A DNA stretch of 32,798 bases. It comes from Eggerthia catenaformis OT 569 = DSM 20559 (GTDB lineage Bacteria; Bacillota_I; Bacilli_A; Erysipelotrichales; Coprobacillaceae). The stretch is taken from positions 283,604-316,401 of the forward strand of contig NZ_KB446648.1 of the NCBI RefSeq assembly GCF_000340375.1, in the 5' to 3' direction. Made by a program: the position numbers and the translations under genes. Below the pieces are notes generated by a model that saw only the letters and a list, made by a program, of their open reading frames with translations, had not been told where the DNA came from and ran no database searches. The first letter of the stretch is position 1. Every line of letters begins with the position of its first letter. This document shows positions 14,854 through 19,988 of this stretch, one piece after another.

Positions 14854-14862
14854 GCTTTTTTT
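14836..14862. terminator. Bidirectional terminator overlapping two stop codons
   Basis: The 12-bp stem of seven A plus GCTCA, loop GTT, then TGAGC plus seven T. It contains the TGA of the plus-strand gene (14851-14853) and two bases of the TAA of the minus-strand gene (14861-14863). Confidence 0.88.
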
Positions 14863-15997
14863 ATAACTCTGCTTCGGTATTCTGTTCATACATCTGTTTG
14901 AGATTCTTTCTCCAGATAAAATCTTTGTAGATAAAATCACAGATAGCGGCTGTTGGGATCGCAAGTAAGATACCCCATACGCCAAACATACGGCTGCCAA
15001 CAATAATAAAGATTAAAATCATGATAGAAGAAACTCCTAAAGTATCTCCAAATAAGACCGGCTTAATCAGATAGCCATCAAATGTTTGTAAGATAATAGT
15101 AAAGATAATAAACCAGAAAGCCATTAATGGATTGACTAAAAGAAGAATAAATCCGCCAATAATAGCACCTACTATTGGTCCGAATGTAGGTGCCAGATTT
15201 GTAACACCTACAATAACTGATACTAAAGCAGTAAAAGGCATATGCATTATTGTCATAAAGAGAAAATTAATGCAGCCAATAATAAAGCCATCTAATAAAT
15301 CACATAAGATATAGCGAATAAAGATACGATTAACTCTTCTCCAGAATTCAGCAACAGCATTATATTTATTTGGCTTTAAGACAGCTTTTAAGAATGCTCT
15401 TAAACTTCTTTGAAGATTAGAAGCATAAATTAAAAAGTAAATAGCGAGAATAAAAGCTATCACAAGATTAAATAAACTGACTCCAATATTAACGGAAGTA
15501 CTGATAATATTATTAATATTTCTAGGAATCATACCGGCAATCTGTTTTAGGGCATCTCCTCCGGCATTTGTCAGATAAGAAATATCAATATTATATTCTT
15601 TAGCGATAGAGGCAAGATTAGCTAGCCATAATTGTAAAGAATGAGAGTAGCTGTCAAAGTTAGAAAACAATCCGACAATTGATTTTACAATAGGTGGAAT
15701 TAATGCAAAGCCTAATATTGTAAGAGCCAGTATAATTAAAATAAATGTTGTAAAGACTGAGAGACTTCTACTATGTTTTCCTTTAAATACTTTTTTTTCA
15801 AAAAAAGCAACTCCGGGATCTAAGATATAGGCAATAATCAAACCATAAATAACAGGAGAAATAAACCTGAAAATATGGGATAATCCCAGTAGAATCATAT
15901 CAAAATGATTGATTATAGAATAAAATGTAATTGCGATACATAAAGCAATACTATAGCTTACCCAGTTTTTATTGAGCCATTCTTTTTTAAATTTCAT
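14861..15997 (-). CDS. AI-2E-family transporter (copy 1)
   Basis: 378 residues from the ATG at 15997, which has AAGGAG 8 nt upstream; the open frame extends further but without a ribosome site. Seven to eight membrane helices in the AI-2E/PerM layout: two N-terminal hairpins, a periplasmic-type loop, then a conserved C-terminal half with FGPIVGAIIGGFI and the family signature VSSIMILIFIIVGSRMFG, then VWGILLAIP. Some relatives export autoinducer-2 and others exchange sodium and protons, so the substrate is unknown. A second member of the family lies at 18695-19912. Confidence 0.9.
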   Translation of the reverse strand: MKFKKEWLNKNWVSYSIALCIAITFYSIINHFDMILLGLSHIFRFISPVIYGLIIAYILDPGVAFFEKKVFKGKHSRSLSVFTTFILIILALTILGFALIPPIVKSIVGLFSNFDSYSHSLQLWLANLASIAKEYNIDISYLTNAGGDALKQIAGMIPRNINNIISTSVNIGVSLFNLVIAFILAIYFLIYASNLQRSLRAFLKAVLKPNKYNAVAEFWRRVNRIFIRYILCDLLDGFIIGCINFLFMTIMHMPFTALVSVIVGVTNLAPTFGPIVGAIIGGFILLLVNPLMAFWFIIFTIILQTFDGYLIKPVLFGDTLGVSSIMILIFIIVGSRMFGVWGILLAIPTAAICDFIYKDFIWRKNLKQMYEQNTEAEL

Positions 15998-16022
15998 AAA
16001 AGACTCCTTTCTAAGTATTGGT

Positions 16023-16031
16023 ATTATAACA
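16023..16031 (-). promoter_or_regulatory. Extended -10 promoter of AI-2E copy 1
   Basis: TGTTATAAT on the minus strand. The predicted start is about 19 nt before the start codon. Confidence 0.55.
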
Positions 16032-16058
16032 TTTACAATGAATAATATACAAGAAAAT

Positions 16059-16102
16059 AAGAGTAAACCTGCCACCTAATTATCAGCAGCAGGGTTACTC
16101 TT
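16059..16102 (-). terminator. Terminator of the lysine-riboswitch ABC operon
   Basis: On the minus strand a 14-bp stem (AAGAGTAACCCTGC / GCAGGTTTACTCTT, one G-T pair) is followed by ATTTTC. It begins within the stop codon of the ATPase gene. Confidence 0.8.
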
Positions 16103-16835
16103 ATTGATTAAAGCGTGAAAGGAATTGTTTTGTACGTTCTTTCTGAGGGTGATTAAAGATCTGATCAGGTGTTCCTTTTTCACAGACATAGCCTTTATCC
16201 ATAAAATAAATGATATCACTTACTTCAGAAGCAAACTGCATTTCATGAGTAACAATGGCCATTGTCAGTCCATGTTTAGCCAGTCCTTTAATAACATCCA
16301 GAACATCACCAACCATTTCCGGATCAAGAGCACTTGTGGGTTCATCAAATAACAAGACATCAGGATTCATACATAAGCTGCGAGCAATAGCAACTCTTTG
16401 TTTTTGACCGCCTGAAAGAGTGATTACAGAAGCATTAGAAAATTGCTCCATGCCTACTTTTCTAAGATTATCTAAAGCAATTTTTTTTGCTTCATCTTTA
16501 CTTTTCTTTAAAACTTTTATTTGAGCAATGACACAGTTATCGAGAACGCTTTTATTAACAAAAAGATTGAAAGACTGAAATACCATACCTACTTTACTGC
16601 GATATTCATTGACTTTCATTGAGCTTTTTAAGATATTAGTACCACGATAAAGAATTTCGCCATCACTGGGAATCTCTAAAAGATTAATACATCTTAATAA
16701 AGTAGATTTTCCGCTGCCTGATGACCCGATAATTGTAACAACCTGTCCTTTATCAATAGTAAGATTCACATCATGAAGGACATCTAGCTGACCAAATGAT
16801 TTTTTTAAATGATTAATTTCAATAACATGTTCCAT
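16101..16835 (-). CDS. Polar amino-acid ABC importer, ATPase (predicted lysine uptake)
   Basis: A 244-residue GlnQ/HisP-type ATPase. Walker [10 protein letters not shown] (37-45), Q-loop MVFQSFNLF, signature LSGGQKQR (140-147), Walker [14 protein letters not shown] with catalytic Glu165, and H-loop VTHEM are all intact. It is the last of three genes; its start is 9 nt after the permease stop. The substrate is not visible in the ATPase itself. Lysine is inferred from the riboswitch that heads the operon. Confidence 0.95.
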
Positions 16836-16844
16836 GATTCCCTC

Positions 16845-17573
16845 CTATGCACAATGATCCATAATTGTAGCAGTATCAGTATGATTTAATTTCTTTTCAA
16901 TCCTATTTAATATAAATGTAGCAGCAGATGTTAAAAGCAGATACATAATAGCTACTAACATATAAACTTCAGTAAATCTCATTGTACTTCCGGCAATACT
17001 TGTTGCCTGGAAATAAAGTTCACTGACTGCAATCGCATTCAGCATACAGCTGTCTTTAATATTAACGATTAACTGATTGCCAATAGATGGAAAAGTATTC
17101 TTAATAGCCTGTGGAAAGATGACAGATATCAGAGTCTGAAAATTTGTCATACCTAAAGATTTTGCTGCTTCTTTTTGACCATTATCAATAGATTGAATAC
17201 CGGATCTGATGATTTCAGCCATATAGGCAGCTGTATTAATGGAAATAATAATCATACCGGCTGTTAAAGATGTCCAGTGAAAAAATGGCTTTAATAGATA
17301 ATAAAGAAAGACTGCCTGTACCATCATTGGTGTTCCTCTAAAAACCCAGACATAGAGTGAAGTGATCAGATGTCCCAGTTTTTTAAAGAATTTGACAGCC
17401 GGTGAATCAAGAGGATCAATTTCTAATGAATGAATAGCTCCGATGATAAGACCTAATATTAAACCGGCAGTTGTGCCGACAATTGCAAAAGCTAATGTCA
17501 TATAGATGCCATATGTAAATAATGGCCATGATTCTATTAAAGTTTTAAAAGCAAATTTAAAATCAATACTCAT
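16845..17573 (-). CDS. Polar amino-acid ABC importer, permease
   Basis: A 242-residue permease of the HisM/GlnP kind with about five membrane helices. RGTPMMVQ (79-86) and the EAA loop GQKEAAKSLGMTNFQTLISV (132-151), which docks on the ATPase, are both conserved, as is NTAAYMAEIIRSGI. There is no fused binding domain. It lies 10 nt after the binding-protein gene. Only one permease gene is present, so it probably acts as a homodimer. Confidence 0.95.
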   Translation of the reverse strand: MSIDFKFAFKTLIESWPLFTYGIYMTLAFAIVGTTAGLILGLIIGAIHSLEIDPLDSPAVKFFKKLGHLITSLYVWVFRGTPMMVQAVFLYYLLKPFFHWTSLTAGMIIISINTAAYMAEIIRSGIQSIDNGQKEAAKSLGMTNFQTLISVIFPQAIKNTFPSIGNQLIVNIKDSCMLNAIAVSELYFQATSIAGSTMRFTEVYMLVAIMYLLLTSAATFILNRIEKKLNHTDTATIMDHCA

Positions 17574-17583
17574 AATTTATCCT

Positions 17584-18399
17584 CTAGTTTGTTGAAGGTG
17601 CACGATTAACAGCATCTTCCATAATCTTTAAACGTTCTTTTTGAGAAATACTATCTAAAGCTTTTTGAATTTGTTTAAAATTATCAGATCCTCTTGTTCC
17701 TTCTTTTAAGCCGATAGATACTGATGTATCAATATCAAATCCTTTATTTTTATCAAAATGGACAATAGCCAGATTCTTATTAGCTTTAACAATCCCATTC
17801 GCAACAGGAAGCTCAGCAGGAACCGCATCAGCATCTTTATTCTGTAAAGCTAATACAAGTTCAGGATAAGTAGCTTTTGGAGTCTGATGCTTAACACCTT
17901 TAATCTGATCAATAACAGTATCATAATTGGTATTCTTCTGTCCCATGACTTTTTGACCTGTGAATTGCTGAATACTCTTATAAGAAGCTTGTGGACTATC
18001 TTTACGTACAATCATAACCATTTCAGACTGATAATAAGGAGTGGTAAAGTCTACACCTTTTTCTCTTTCTTTATTAGCTGTCATACCGGCAATAATAGCA
18101 TCAATTTCTCCGCTATTTAAGGCACTGGATAAACCATCCCAGCTAATTTTCTTGATAACAAGTTTTTTACCTAAAGCTTTAGCGATTTTCTGACTCATTA
18201 CAACATCATAGCCGTCAGCATACCCTGCTCCGCCTTCTAAAGGAACAGATGTATCTGTCTTTTTAGAAGTCTGCCAGTTAAAAGGCTGATAAGCTGCTTC
18301 CATACCAACCGTAAATGTTTCTTCTTTCTTATTAGCCAAACCACATCCTGCTAAGCTTAATGCCAGTAATACTGCTAAAGCCAATCTCATAAATTTCAT
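17584..18399 (-). CDS. Polar amino-acid ABC importer, substrate-binding lipoprotein
   Basis: 271 residues from the ATG at 18399, chosen because AGGAGG sits 8 nt upstream; the frame stays open further upstream only across the riboswitch. The signal peptide ends in lipobox LAGC (Cys19). The mature part follows the family 3 solute-binding (SBP_bac_3) pattern: FTVGMEAAYQPFNW, GYDVVMSQKIAKALGK, WDGLSSALNSGEIDAIIAGM, the DFTTPYY block and GQKVMGQKNTNYD. Asp and Glu residues near the ligand loop would suit a cationic amino acid. The upstream lysine riboswitch makes lysine the best substrate guess. Confidence 0.94.
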   Translation of the reverse strand: MKFMRLALAVLLALSLAGCGLANKKEETFTVGMEAAYQPFNWQTSKKTDTSVPLEGGAGYADGYDVVMSQKIAKALGKKLVIKKISWDGLSSALNSGEIDAIIAGMTANKEREKGVDFTTPYYQSEMVMIVRKDSPQASYKSIQQFTGQKVMGQKNTNYDTVIDQIKGVKHQTPKATYPELVLALQNKDADAVPAELPVANGIVKANKNLAIVHFDKNKGFDIDTSVSIGLKEGTRGSDNFKQIQKALDSISQKERLKIMEDAVNRAPSTN

Positions 18400-18418: not shown

Positions 18419-18607
18419 AAAAAATAACTATGCGTTAACATAGTCAATGTTCCATGATAACGCCTCTTCTTACGAAGGAGTGAATAGGGTATTTCCCTAG
18501 ACCCCAAGAAAATAATCACCATTATTTTCTTTCGGCGATGGTTACCTTTCTCTCAGTTCATAGAATGTCTTCTCCCTAAGATACTCTGATGCATCGCTGC
18601 CTTTATC
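18419..18607 (-). ncRNA. Lysine riboswitch (L-box) with transcription terminator
   Basis: Read on the minus strand, the leader contains the L-box core in order: AGGCAGCGATG, CAGAGTA, GAGAAAGG, ATCGCCGAA, a hairpin, TTGGGGTCTAGGGAAATACC and CTATTCACTC. The lysine aptamer of Thermotoga maritima has the same series (GAGTA, CTGAAAGG, GCGCCGAAG, a GGG-AAUACCC hairpin). P1 can form from GATAA (18607-18603) and TTATC (18460-18456). Downstream, ACTATG (18444-18439) and CATAGT (18432-18427) make a terminator followed by T-rich sequence. GCGTTA can instead pair with TAACGC as an antiterminator and competes with P1. This predicts shut-off by lysine. Confidence 0.87.
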
Positions 18608-18628
18608 TTTTATTTGTTTATAGCCATG

Positions 18629-18656
18629 ATTATATACTTATCACTATTGTTGTCAA
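18629..18656 (-). promoter_or_regulatory. Consensus promoter driving the lysine riboswitch operon
   Basis: TTGACA (18656-18651), a 16-bp spacer and TATAAT (18634-18629) on the minus strand, both perfect. The start near 18622 gives a leader of about 223 nt, enough to hold the aptamer. Confidence 0.85.
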
Positions 18657-18694: not shown

Positions 18695-19912
18695 CTAGAA
18701 TAAATGCTCAACTGTCTGACCATCATCATCTACTTCAAGAATTTCTGTTTCAGTGACTTCAATATGCTGTCGATAAAGAGAAATATTGATAATACGATCT
18801 AAAAAAGCATAGATAAAAGCTGTTAAAGGGACGGCAATCAAAACTCCAAAGAAACCGAATAATCGTCCAAATACAGTAATTCCCAGTAATACAAATAAGC
18901 CACTGATACCGACTGATTTACCAACTACTCTTGGATAGACAATATTTCCTTCAAACTGCTGAAGTGAAACAAAGACAATCACAAATAAGAGAAGCTTATC
19001 ATAAGCAGCGGCAGAAACTAGAATAGAGCCAATCACTAAGGTAAAAAAGCTTCCAAACATTGGTATAAAGCTAAATATAAAAGCAATTAAGCCAATGATT
19101 TCCGGGAAAGGAATACTTAGTATTCTCATAGCAATATAGACAATAGTCATAAATATTGTTGCTTCCAACAACTGTCCGCTGACAAACTTAGTAAAATAAT
19201 GATGTGCTTCAGCAGCTATCTGAAATATATGTATCGCTCTGTCTTTTTTGAAGATATACAATACTATTTTTCTTAACTGCATAGTATGCTTTTCTTTGCT
19301 TGATAATAGATATAGAGACATAAAGAATGCTGTTACACTGGTAACAATTGTATCACTGATTGAACTGATCACACCGGATAAGCTTTTAGATGTCGTTGAT
19401 GTCAGATTAAGAATATTAACAAGAAATTCATTGATATTAATAGAATTAAAGAAGTTTTGCACATCACTGTAAGTAACCTTAAAGTTTAAATTAAACCGGG
19501 TAGATATCTTATTCATAAAGCCGGCCAAACGAGAAATATAATTAGTCATATTATTAATGATCAGACCAATGCTTTCCGCAATTCTAGGAGTAATAAAAGA
19601 TGTAAAGACGATAATAATCGCAATAAAAATAATAATTGTTCCGGCTATCGCAAAGCCGCGAGAATTCTTTTTAAGAAACTTTAATTCTTTTCTATCTGAA
19701 TTTTTTAATATCAGCTCTTCTATCTTTTTCATTGGTATATTCATAATAAAACCAATTATAATTGCAATATAGAAGGGTGTACCTAGAGAAAGAATATATC
19801 CTATTACATTTAAAACGGACTGAAGATTGTAAACAACAAAAGATAATAGAACCGCAAATAGGATGTAAACAAATATCTTATCTTTAGGTAAATACTGTTT
19901 ATGTTTGTCCAT
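18695..19912 (-). CDS. AI-2E-family transporter (copy 2)
   Basis: 405 residues from the ATG at 19912, with GAGGTGA 5 nt upstream; the frame is open 18 codons further without a ribosome site. Seven to eight membrane helices and the conserved C-terminal AI-2E/PerM block (VVGKSVGISGLFVLLGITVF, then GRLFGFFGVLIAVPLTAF) identify the family. It ends in an acidic tail (EVTETEILEVDDDGQ) that copy 1 lacks. Sequence details differ widely from copy 1, so they are old paralogues and not a recent duplication. Confidence 0.9.
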   Translation of the reverse strand: MDKHKQYLPKDKIFVYILFAVLLSFVVYNLQSVLNVIGYILSLGTPFYIAIIIGFIMNIPMKKIEELILKNSDRKELKFLKKNSRGFAIAGTIIIFIAIIIVFTSFITPRIAESIGLIINNMTNYISRLAGFMNKISTRFNLNFKVTYSDVQNFFNSININEFLVNILNLTSTTSKSLSGVISSISDTIVTSVTAFFMSLYLLSSKEKHTMQLRKIVLYIFKKDRAIHIFQIAAEAHHYFTKFVSGQLLEATIFMTIVYIAMRILSIPFPEIIGLIAFIFSFIPMFGSFFTLVIGSILVSAAAYDKLLLFVIVFVSLQQFEGNIVYPRVVGKSVGISGLFVLLGITVFGRLFGFFGVLIAVPLTAFIYAFLDRIINISLYRQHIEVTETEILEVDDDGQTVEHLF

Positions 19913-19930
19913 CAGAGTCACCTCTTTATT

Positions 19931-19939
19931 ATCATAACA
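19931..19939 (-). promoter_or_regulatory. Extended -10 promoter of AI-2E copy 2
   Basis: TGTTATGAT on the minus strand. The predicted start near 19924 falls at the first base of the ribosome site, about 12 nt before ATG. Confidence 0.5.
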
Positions 19940-19988
19940 TAAAGTGAGCAATAATAAAATAATCAAGGTTTATTGAAATAAAATTGTA

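Follow-up and report, generated by a model that had tools for sequence, protein, structure and literature searches.

The locus described here, a three-gene amino-acid ABC importer preceded by a minus-strand leader in a 32,798-nucleotide stretch of the Eggerthia catenaformis genome (the window), raises two linked questions: whether the leader is a working lysine riboswitch, and which substrate the importer takes up. Our computational analysis indicates, with a probability of about 0.9, that the leader is a lysine-binding riboswitch controlling a three-gene lysine importer via transcription termination. The substrate is predicted to be, most likely, lysine or basic amino acids with a preference for lysine.

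A full-length lysine riboswitch aptamer follows a consensus promoter

The sequence-only reading had placed a lysine riboswitch at 18419–18656 and named a covariance-model search as its check. This search passed strongly: cmscan identified a full-length match to the Rfam lysine riboswitch family (L-box, RF00168) at 18613–18450 on the minus strand, covering model positions 1–182 of 182 with 65.4 bits (E 4.1e-15) against a gathering score of 30 bits. The same aptamer was recovered by the whole-genome riboswitch search. In a scan against all Rfam families, RF00168 was the sole family to reach its gathering threshold across the 32.8 kb of the window. A T-box or another riboswitch class, raised earlier as a possible better match, had no match at gathering threshold in the window and was rejected for this leader; RF00230 (T-box) gave no covariance-model match in the window, though 14 matches lie elsewhere in the genome. 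Membership in RF00168 points to lysine as the probable ligand of this RNA.

The aptamer is preceded by a sigma-70-type promoter, TTGACA-16 nt-TATAAT, at 18656–18629 (minus strand), which matches the consensus at 12 of 12 positions and ranks best among 18 promoter-like sites in 4 kb. Comparable TTGACA/TATAAT pairs are located upstream of the riboswitch in two relatives (L043 and L044). Taking the transcript to start approximately 7 nt past the -10 box, the leader spans 18622–18400, which agrees with the 223-nt minus-strand leader described previously, and the interval 18419–18656 correctly covers the promoter through to the T-run. Of the L-box core motifs, GAGUA, GAAAGG, GCCGAA, UGGGG and AAUAC are present; J1/2 deviates slightly, by one base, reading UAAAGG where the consensus is UAGAGG.

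The P1 helix and the antiterminator compete for the same strand

P1 of the aptamer is formed by GAUAA and UUAUC (18460–18456). The latter strand lies within GCGUUAUC (18456–18463, minus strand), which also contains the antiterminator 5' arm GCGUUA (18463–18458), so that the stretch 18460–18456 is common to P1 and the antiterminator. The antiterminator 3' arm, UAACGC (18432–18437, minus strand), occupies the terminator loop and the first base of the terminator 3' arm. The GCGUUA/UAACGC pairing is lengthened inwards by CAUGG/CUAUG, giving a module of -12.7 kcal/mol that covers the terminator 5' arm and loop. The intrinsic terminator (18425–18446, minus strand) is composed of the arms UGACUAUG (18446–18439) and CAUAGUUA (18432–18425), with a stability of -8.4 kcal/mol, and is followed by TTTTTT. 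The mutually exclusive antiterminator and terminator pairings described by the sequence-only reading were thus confirmed, at -12.7 versus -8.4 kcal/mol for the isolated modules, and the platform is one in which P1 excludes the antiterminator. Folding energies for the entire leader favour the antiterminator state over P1 with terminator by approximately 3 kcal/mol; therefore, ligand binding would have to tip the balance.

This layout, together with the riboswitch family, suggests the expected OFF switch by transcription termination, with read-through as the default and termination upon ligand closure of P1. At low lysine, the P1 3' strand would pair with the terminator-loop sequence to form the antiterminator, RNA polymerase would read through and the importer would be produced. 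At high lysine, the bound aptamer would keep P1 shut and block the antiterminator, allowing the terminator to fold and transcription to end ahead of the first gene. Given such a lysine-dependent mechanism, the binding protein encoded downstream would most likely collect lysine and possibly other basic amino acids.

We compared this arrangement across 23 leaders, comprising 19 from the host's family (window leader counted) and those of Absicoccus, Holdemania and two uncultured Erysipelotrichales. All of these leaders (23 of 23) have a terminator and T-run 3' of the aptamer, and in nearly all of them a complement to the P1 3' strand is found in the terminator loop, its sequence varying by group. 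The changes occur on both sides of the pairing (GCGUUA/UAACGC, GCGUUAU/AUAAUGC, GCUAUUAA/UUAAUAGC and GUUAUCU/AGAUAAC); the fit between P1 3' strand and terminator loop is weaker in L009 and L010. Own partners pair at -9.6 kcal/mol versus -6.4 kcal/mol for swapped ones, an average cost of 3.2 kcal/mol per swap. None of 20,000 permutations of the 16 distinct pairs reached the observed mean, a count to be read as support and not as a strict probability or p-value because the leaders share descent, which inflates it.

The same comparison bears on whether the leader could be a decayed L-box that has lost its response to lysine. Its score of 65 bits is lower than that of many relatives (up to 113 bits), and J1/2 carries A for G. 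Against decay stand the full-length match and consensus promoter, as well as competing helices that are intact and co-vary with those of relatives. The J1/2 variant itself recurs, being present in 3 of the 19 importer leaders of the host's family (window leader counted), and two related Sharpea leaders whose platforms are intact carry the identical A-for-G change. We consider loss of the lysine response the least probable of the alternatives weighed here, and retain a functional lysine riboswitch as the preferred reading.

The leader opens a three-gene importer operon

The first gene of the operon (17584–18399, minus strand) encodes a solute-binding lipoprotein of 271 residues (Pfam SBP_bac_3, 88.5 bits), with the ribosome-binding sequence AAAGGAGG located 5' of its ATG. 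It is followed by a 242-residue permease of the polar amino-acid type (16845–17573, minus strand), which scores over the cut-off of TIGR01726 (HEQRo_perm_3TM) and matches Pfam BPD_transp_1, and by the 244-residue ATPase of the importer (16101–16835, minus strand; Pfam ABC_tran, 127.7 bits). The closest NCBIfam models to the ATPase are amino-acid importer ATPases, with scores under their equivalog cut-offs. The gaps between the three genes are approximately 10 nt, and the gene order is kept in the related loci L003–L010, where the flanks are not kept.

A strong terminator at 16056–16105 (minus strand; -26.8 kcal/mol, z -6.6, U-rich 3' side UUAUUUUCUU) closes the operon after the ATPase gene; therefore, the next gene, of the AI-2E family (14861–16075), is separate. 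We rejected it as a fourth operon gene also because its likely ATG lies approximately 100 nt past the ATPase gene and because it is not adjacent to the operon in L003–L010. A second AI-2E-family membrane protein is encoded at 18695–19966, so that the importer operon has one such gene on either side, all encoded by the same strand.

The riboswitch accompanies importer homologues across the order

Of 114 places with a binding-protein homologue, spread over two families of the order, at least 106 have a lysine riboswitch directly upstream. In the host's family this is the case in 19 of 24 places, and in the second family in at least 87 of 90, of which 51 came from the first whole-genome screen and 36 from a full scan of upstream regions. 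Counts from the fast whole-genome screen are lower bounds because this screen missed many riboswitches: the apparent absence in 39 of 90 second-family homologues was mostly fast-filter loss, with 36 of 37 rescanned regions positive, and the L010 riboswitch, also missed by the fast screen, was present on a later scan. On full upstream rescan, L113 was the sole second-family homologue without a riboswitch; of the other two, one is at a contig edge and one fell outside the rescan.

Five homologues of the host's family have no riboswitch (L054, L056, L057, L061 and L062), and the host-family regions L126–L128 were truly without one on full upstream rescan. Three of the five (L054, L056 and L057, genus g20) are 59–64% identical to the window protein; in their genomes the riboswitch precedes a fused binding protein-permease (approximately 523 residues) in two of three and an NhaC-type carrier in the third. 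The fused protein with a riboswitch was found in one genus of the host's family (g20; L058–L060, L063 and L064).

Because at least 106 of the 114 homologues across the order retain this pairing with the riboswitch, the importer most likely carries lysine, and this near-universal linkage supports, as a prediction, the substrate proposed in the sequence-only reading. Further support comes from the riboswitches of the host's family, of which we identified 68 in 43 genomes. They precede lysine biosynthesis genes (38), the window-type importer (19), NhaC-type carriers (7) and DcuC-type carriers (2), the remaining 2 being unassigned. Riboswitch-driven transporters never number more than one in any of the 43 genomes, and where an NhaC- or DcuC-type riboswitch carrier is present, the importer is absent in 8 of 9 genomes (exception, G036); other riboswitch-controlled transporters thus replace the importer where it is absent.

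The host genome has two lysine riboswitches, both linked to lysine genes: the window copy precedes the importer and the other leads ACT-dapA-dapB-lysA (with a dapB-like gene), consistent with a lysine role for the importer. The second copy could also accommodate import of a lysine precursor or analogue, such as diaminopimelate or ornithine, with lysine sensed as the end product, since lysine is the sensed end product at the dap-lysA operon too. However, the window shows no dap gene in linkage with the importer, carriers known to be under riboswitch control are regarded as carrying lysine (PMC5584792), and uptake of lysine itself is a simple explanation of the replacement pattern. We regard precursor import as very unlikely and favour lysine itself.

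Behind the biosynthesis riboswitch, the leading gene (L132:563-1024, G000:C1) encodes a free ACT-domain protein of approximately 153 residues whose match to aspartokinase is confined to the regulatory end (TIGR00657 positions 287–440), as in nearly all genomes of the family; in G017, the same slot is occupied by a protein that has both aspartokinase and ACT domains. The free protein may be a split-off lysine-sensing subunit. A T-box leader (L135, G000:C3:76473-76678) was also observed upstream of an apparent lysyl-tRNA synthetase gene.

The binding pocket has a basic-amino-acid pattern

The binding protein scores best against TIGR01096 (Lys/Arg/Orn), yet at 99.3 bits it is under the cut-off of 256.35. 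Its residues E34, Y37, W87, T107 and R112 align with D11, Y14, F52, S72 and R77 of E. coli ArgT, which, together with D161, we take to be ligand-touching positions of the Lys/Arg/Orn-binding protein. E196, one alignment column off ArgT D161, falls in line with the acid of 4ymx and 4i62. All six residues (E34, Y37, W87, T107, R112 and E196) are at or beside the ArgT-equivalent positions and are invariant in 19 homologues. The AlphaFold model of the protein (pLDDT 87) has as its best solved matches basic and other amino-acid binding proteins with closely spaced Z scores of 22–24, including lysine-bound 3k4u; several arginine-binding proteins are among the closest solved relatives. The basic-amino-acid pattern of the pocket supports the lysine assignment and is also common to arginine and ornithine binders. 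Both the pocket and the modelled structure's matches agree with lysine without separating it from arginine or ornithine.

These data leave room for a general importer of basic amino acids (arginine, ornithine, lysine and histidine) that happens to be placed under a lysine switch, as would fit the top, sub-threshold TIGR01096 score (99 of 256 bits) and the arginine and basic amino-acid binders among the closest structures. The order-wide linkage argues otherwise, being to the lysine switch and not to arginine or histidine controls. The only other SBP_bac_3 amino-acid binding protein of the host genome also speaks against a general role for the window importer: a T-box (L138:1501-1709; G000:C2:429673-429881) is located approximately 50 nt upstream of its gene, and comparison with the genome's Tyr, Phe and Leu T-boxes gives this T-box the specifier CGC (Arg) when anchored on the 3' side and GCG (Ala) when anchored on the 5' side. 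With the 3' anchoring, arginine may have its own importer in this second system. We consider a general importer a real possibility, though a lesser one, and continue to prefer a lysine importer.

Relation to known systems and significance

Compared with established RF00168 elements such as the Bacillus subtilis lysC leader, the window leader has the same full-length aptamer, exchange of a P1 strand between antiterminator and terminator, and lysine gene context; it differs by one J1/2 base and otherwise in nothing notable. According to PMC5584792, LysX-LysY ABC transporters (COG0834) under lysine riboswitches were proposed by Rodionov et al. 2003, and PMC5584792 describes these proposed lysine transporters for Firmicutes, Actinobacteria and Fusobacteria. 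Both those systems and the window locus place a lysine riboswitch directly before an ABC importer with a family-3 binding protein. The window locus, made up of three separate genes (binding protein, permease and ATPase) in an arrangement conserved in L003–L010, belongs, as judged by gene types and riboswitch, with the riboswitch-controlled LysX-LysY transporters, which have been described before in other bacteria. Erysipelotrichales are absent from the text of PMC5584792, and the literature searched yielded no paper joining "lysine riboswitch" with "Erysipelotrich...". The present analysis adds the very strong linkage across the order, together with the replacement pattern.

The E. coli ArgT-HisQMP lysine/arginine/ornithine importer shares the binding-protein and permease families, with alignable pocket positions. 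The window importer differs in having Glu for Asp11, Trp for Phe52 and an extra stretch near residues 47–60; it also has a single permease gene, against two in E. coli, and is controlled by a riboswitch. Carriers of the LysW (NhaC-type) and YfcC-type under lysine riboswitches have been described (PMC5584792, PMC11477304), with NhaC and YfcC alternatives listed for Clostridioides difficile (PMC11477304). In related genomes of the host's family such carriers fill the riboswitch-controlled transporter slot; they are unrelated secondary transporters that replace the window-type importer in 8 of 9 genomes.

Based on these comparisons, it is conceivable, at a little under even odds, that the importer represents a distinct, order-wide lysine-selective subfamily, with Glu at the side-chain ammonium site and Trp at the stacking site. 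Such a subfamily would serve Erysipelotrichales as their standard system for lysine uptake, in alternation with carriers of the NhaC and DcuC types that the same switch controls. The analysis provides a predicted substrate for an importer whose name otherwise says no more than polar amino-acid transport; homology extends this prediction to more than 100 genes in the order. The leaders and transporters of these genomes also form a natural series for asking whether NhaC-type and YfcC-type carriers carry lysine.
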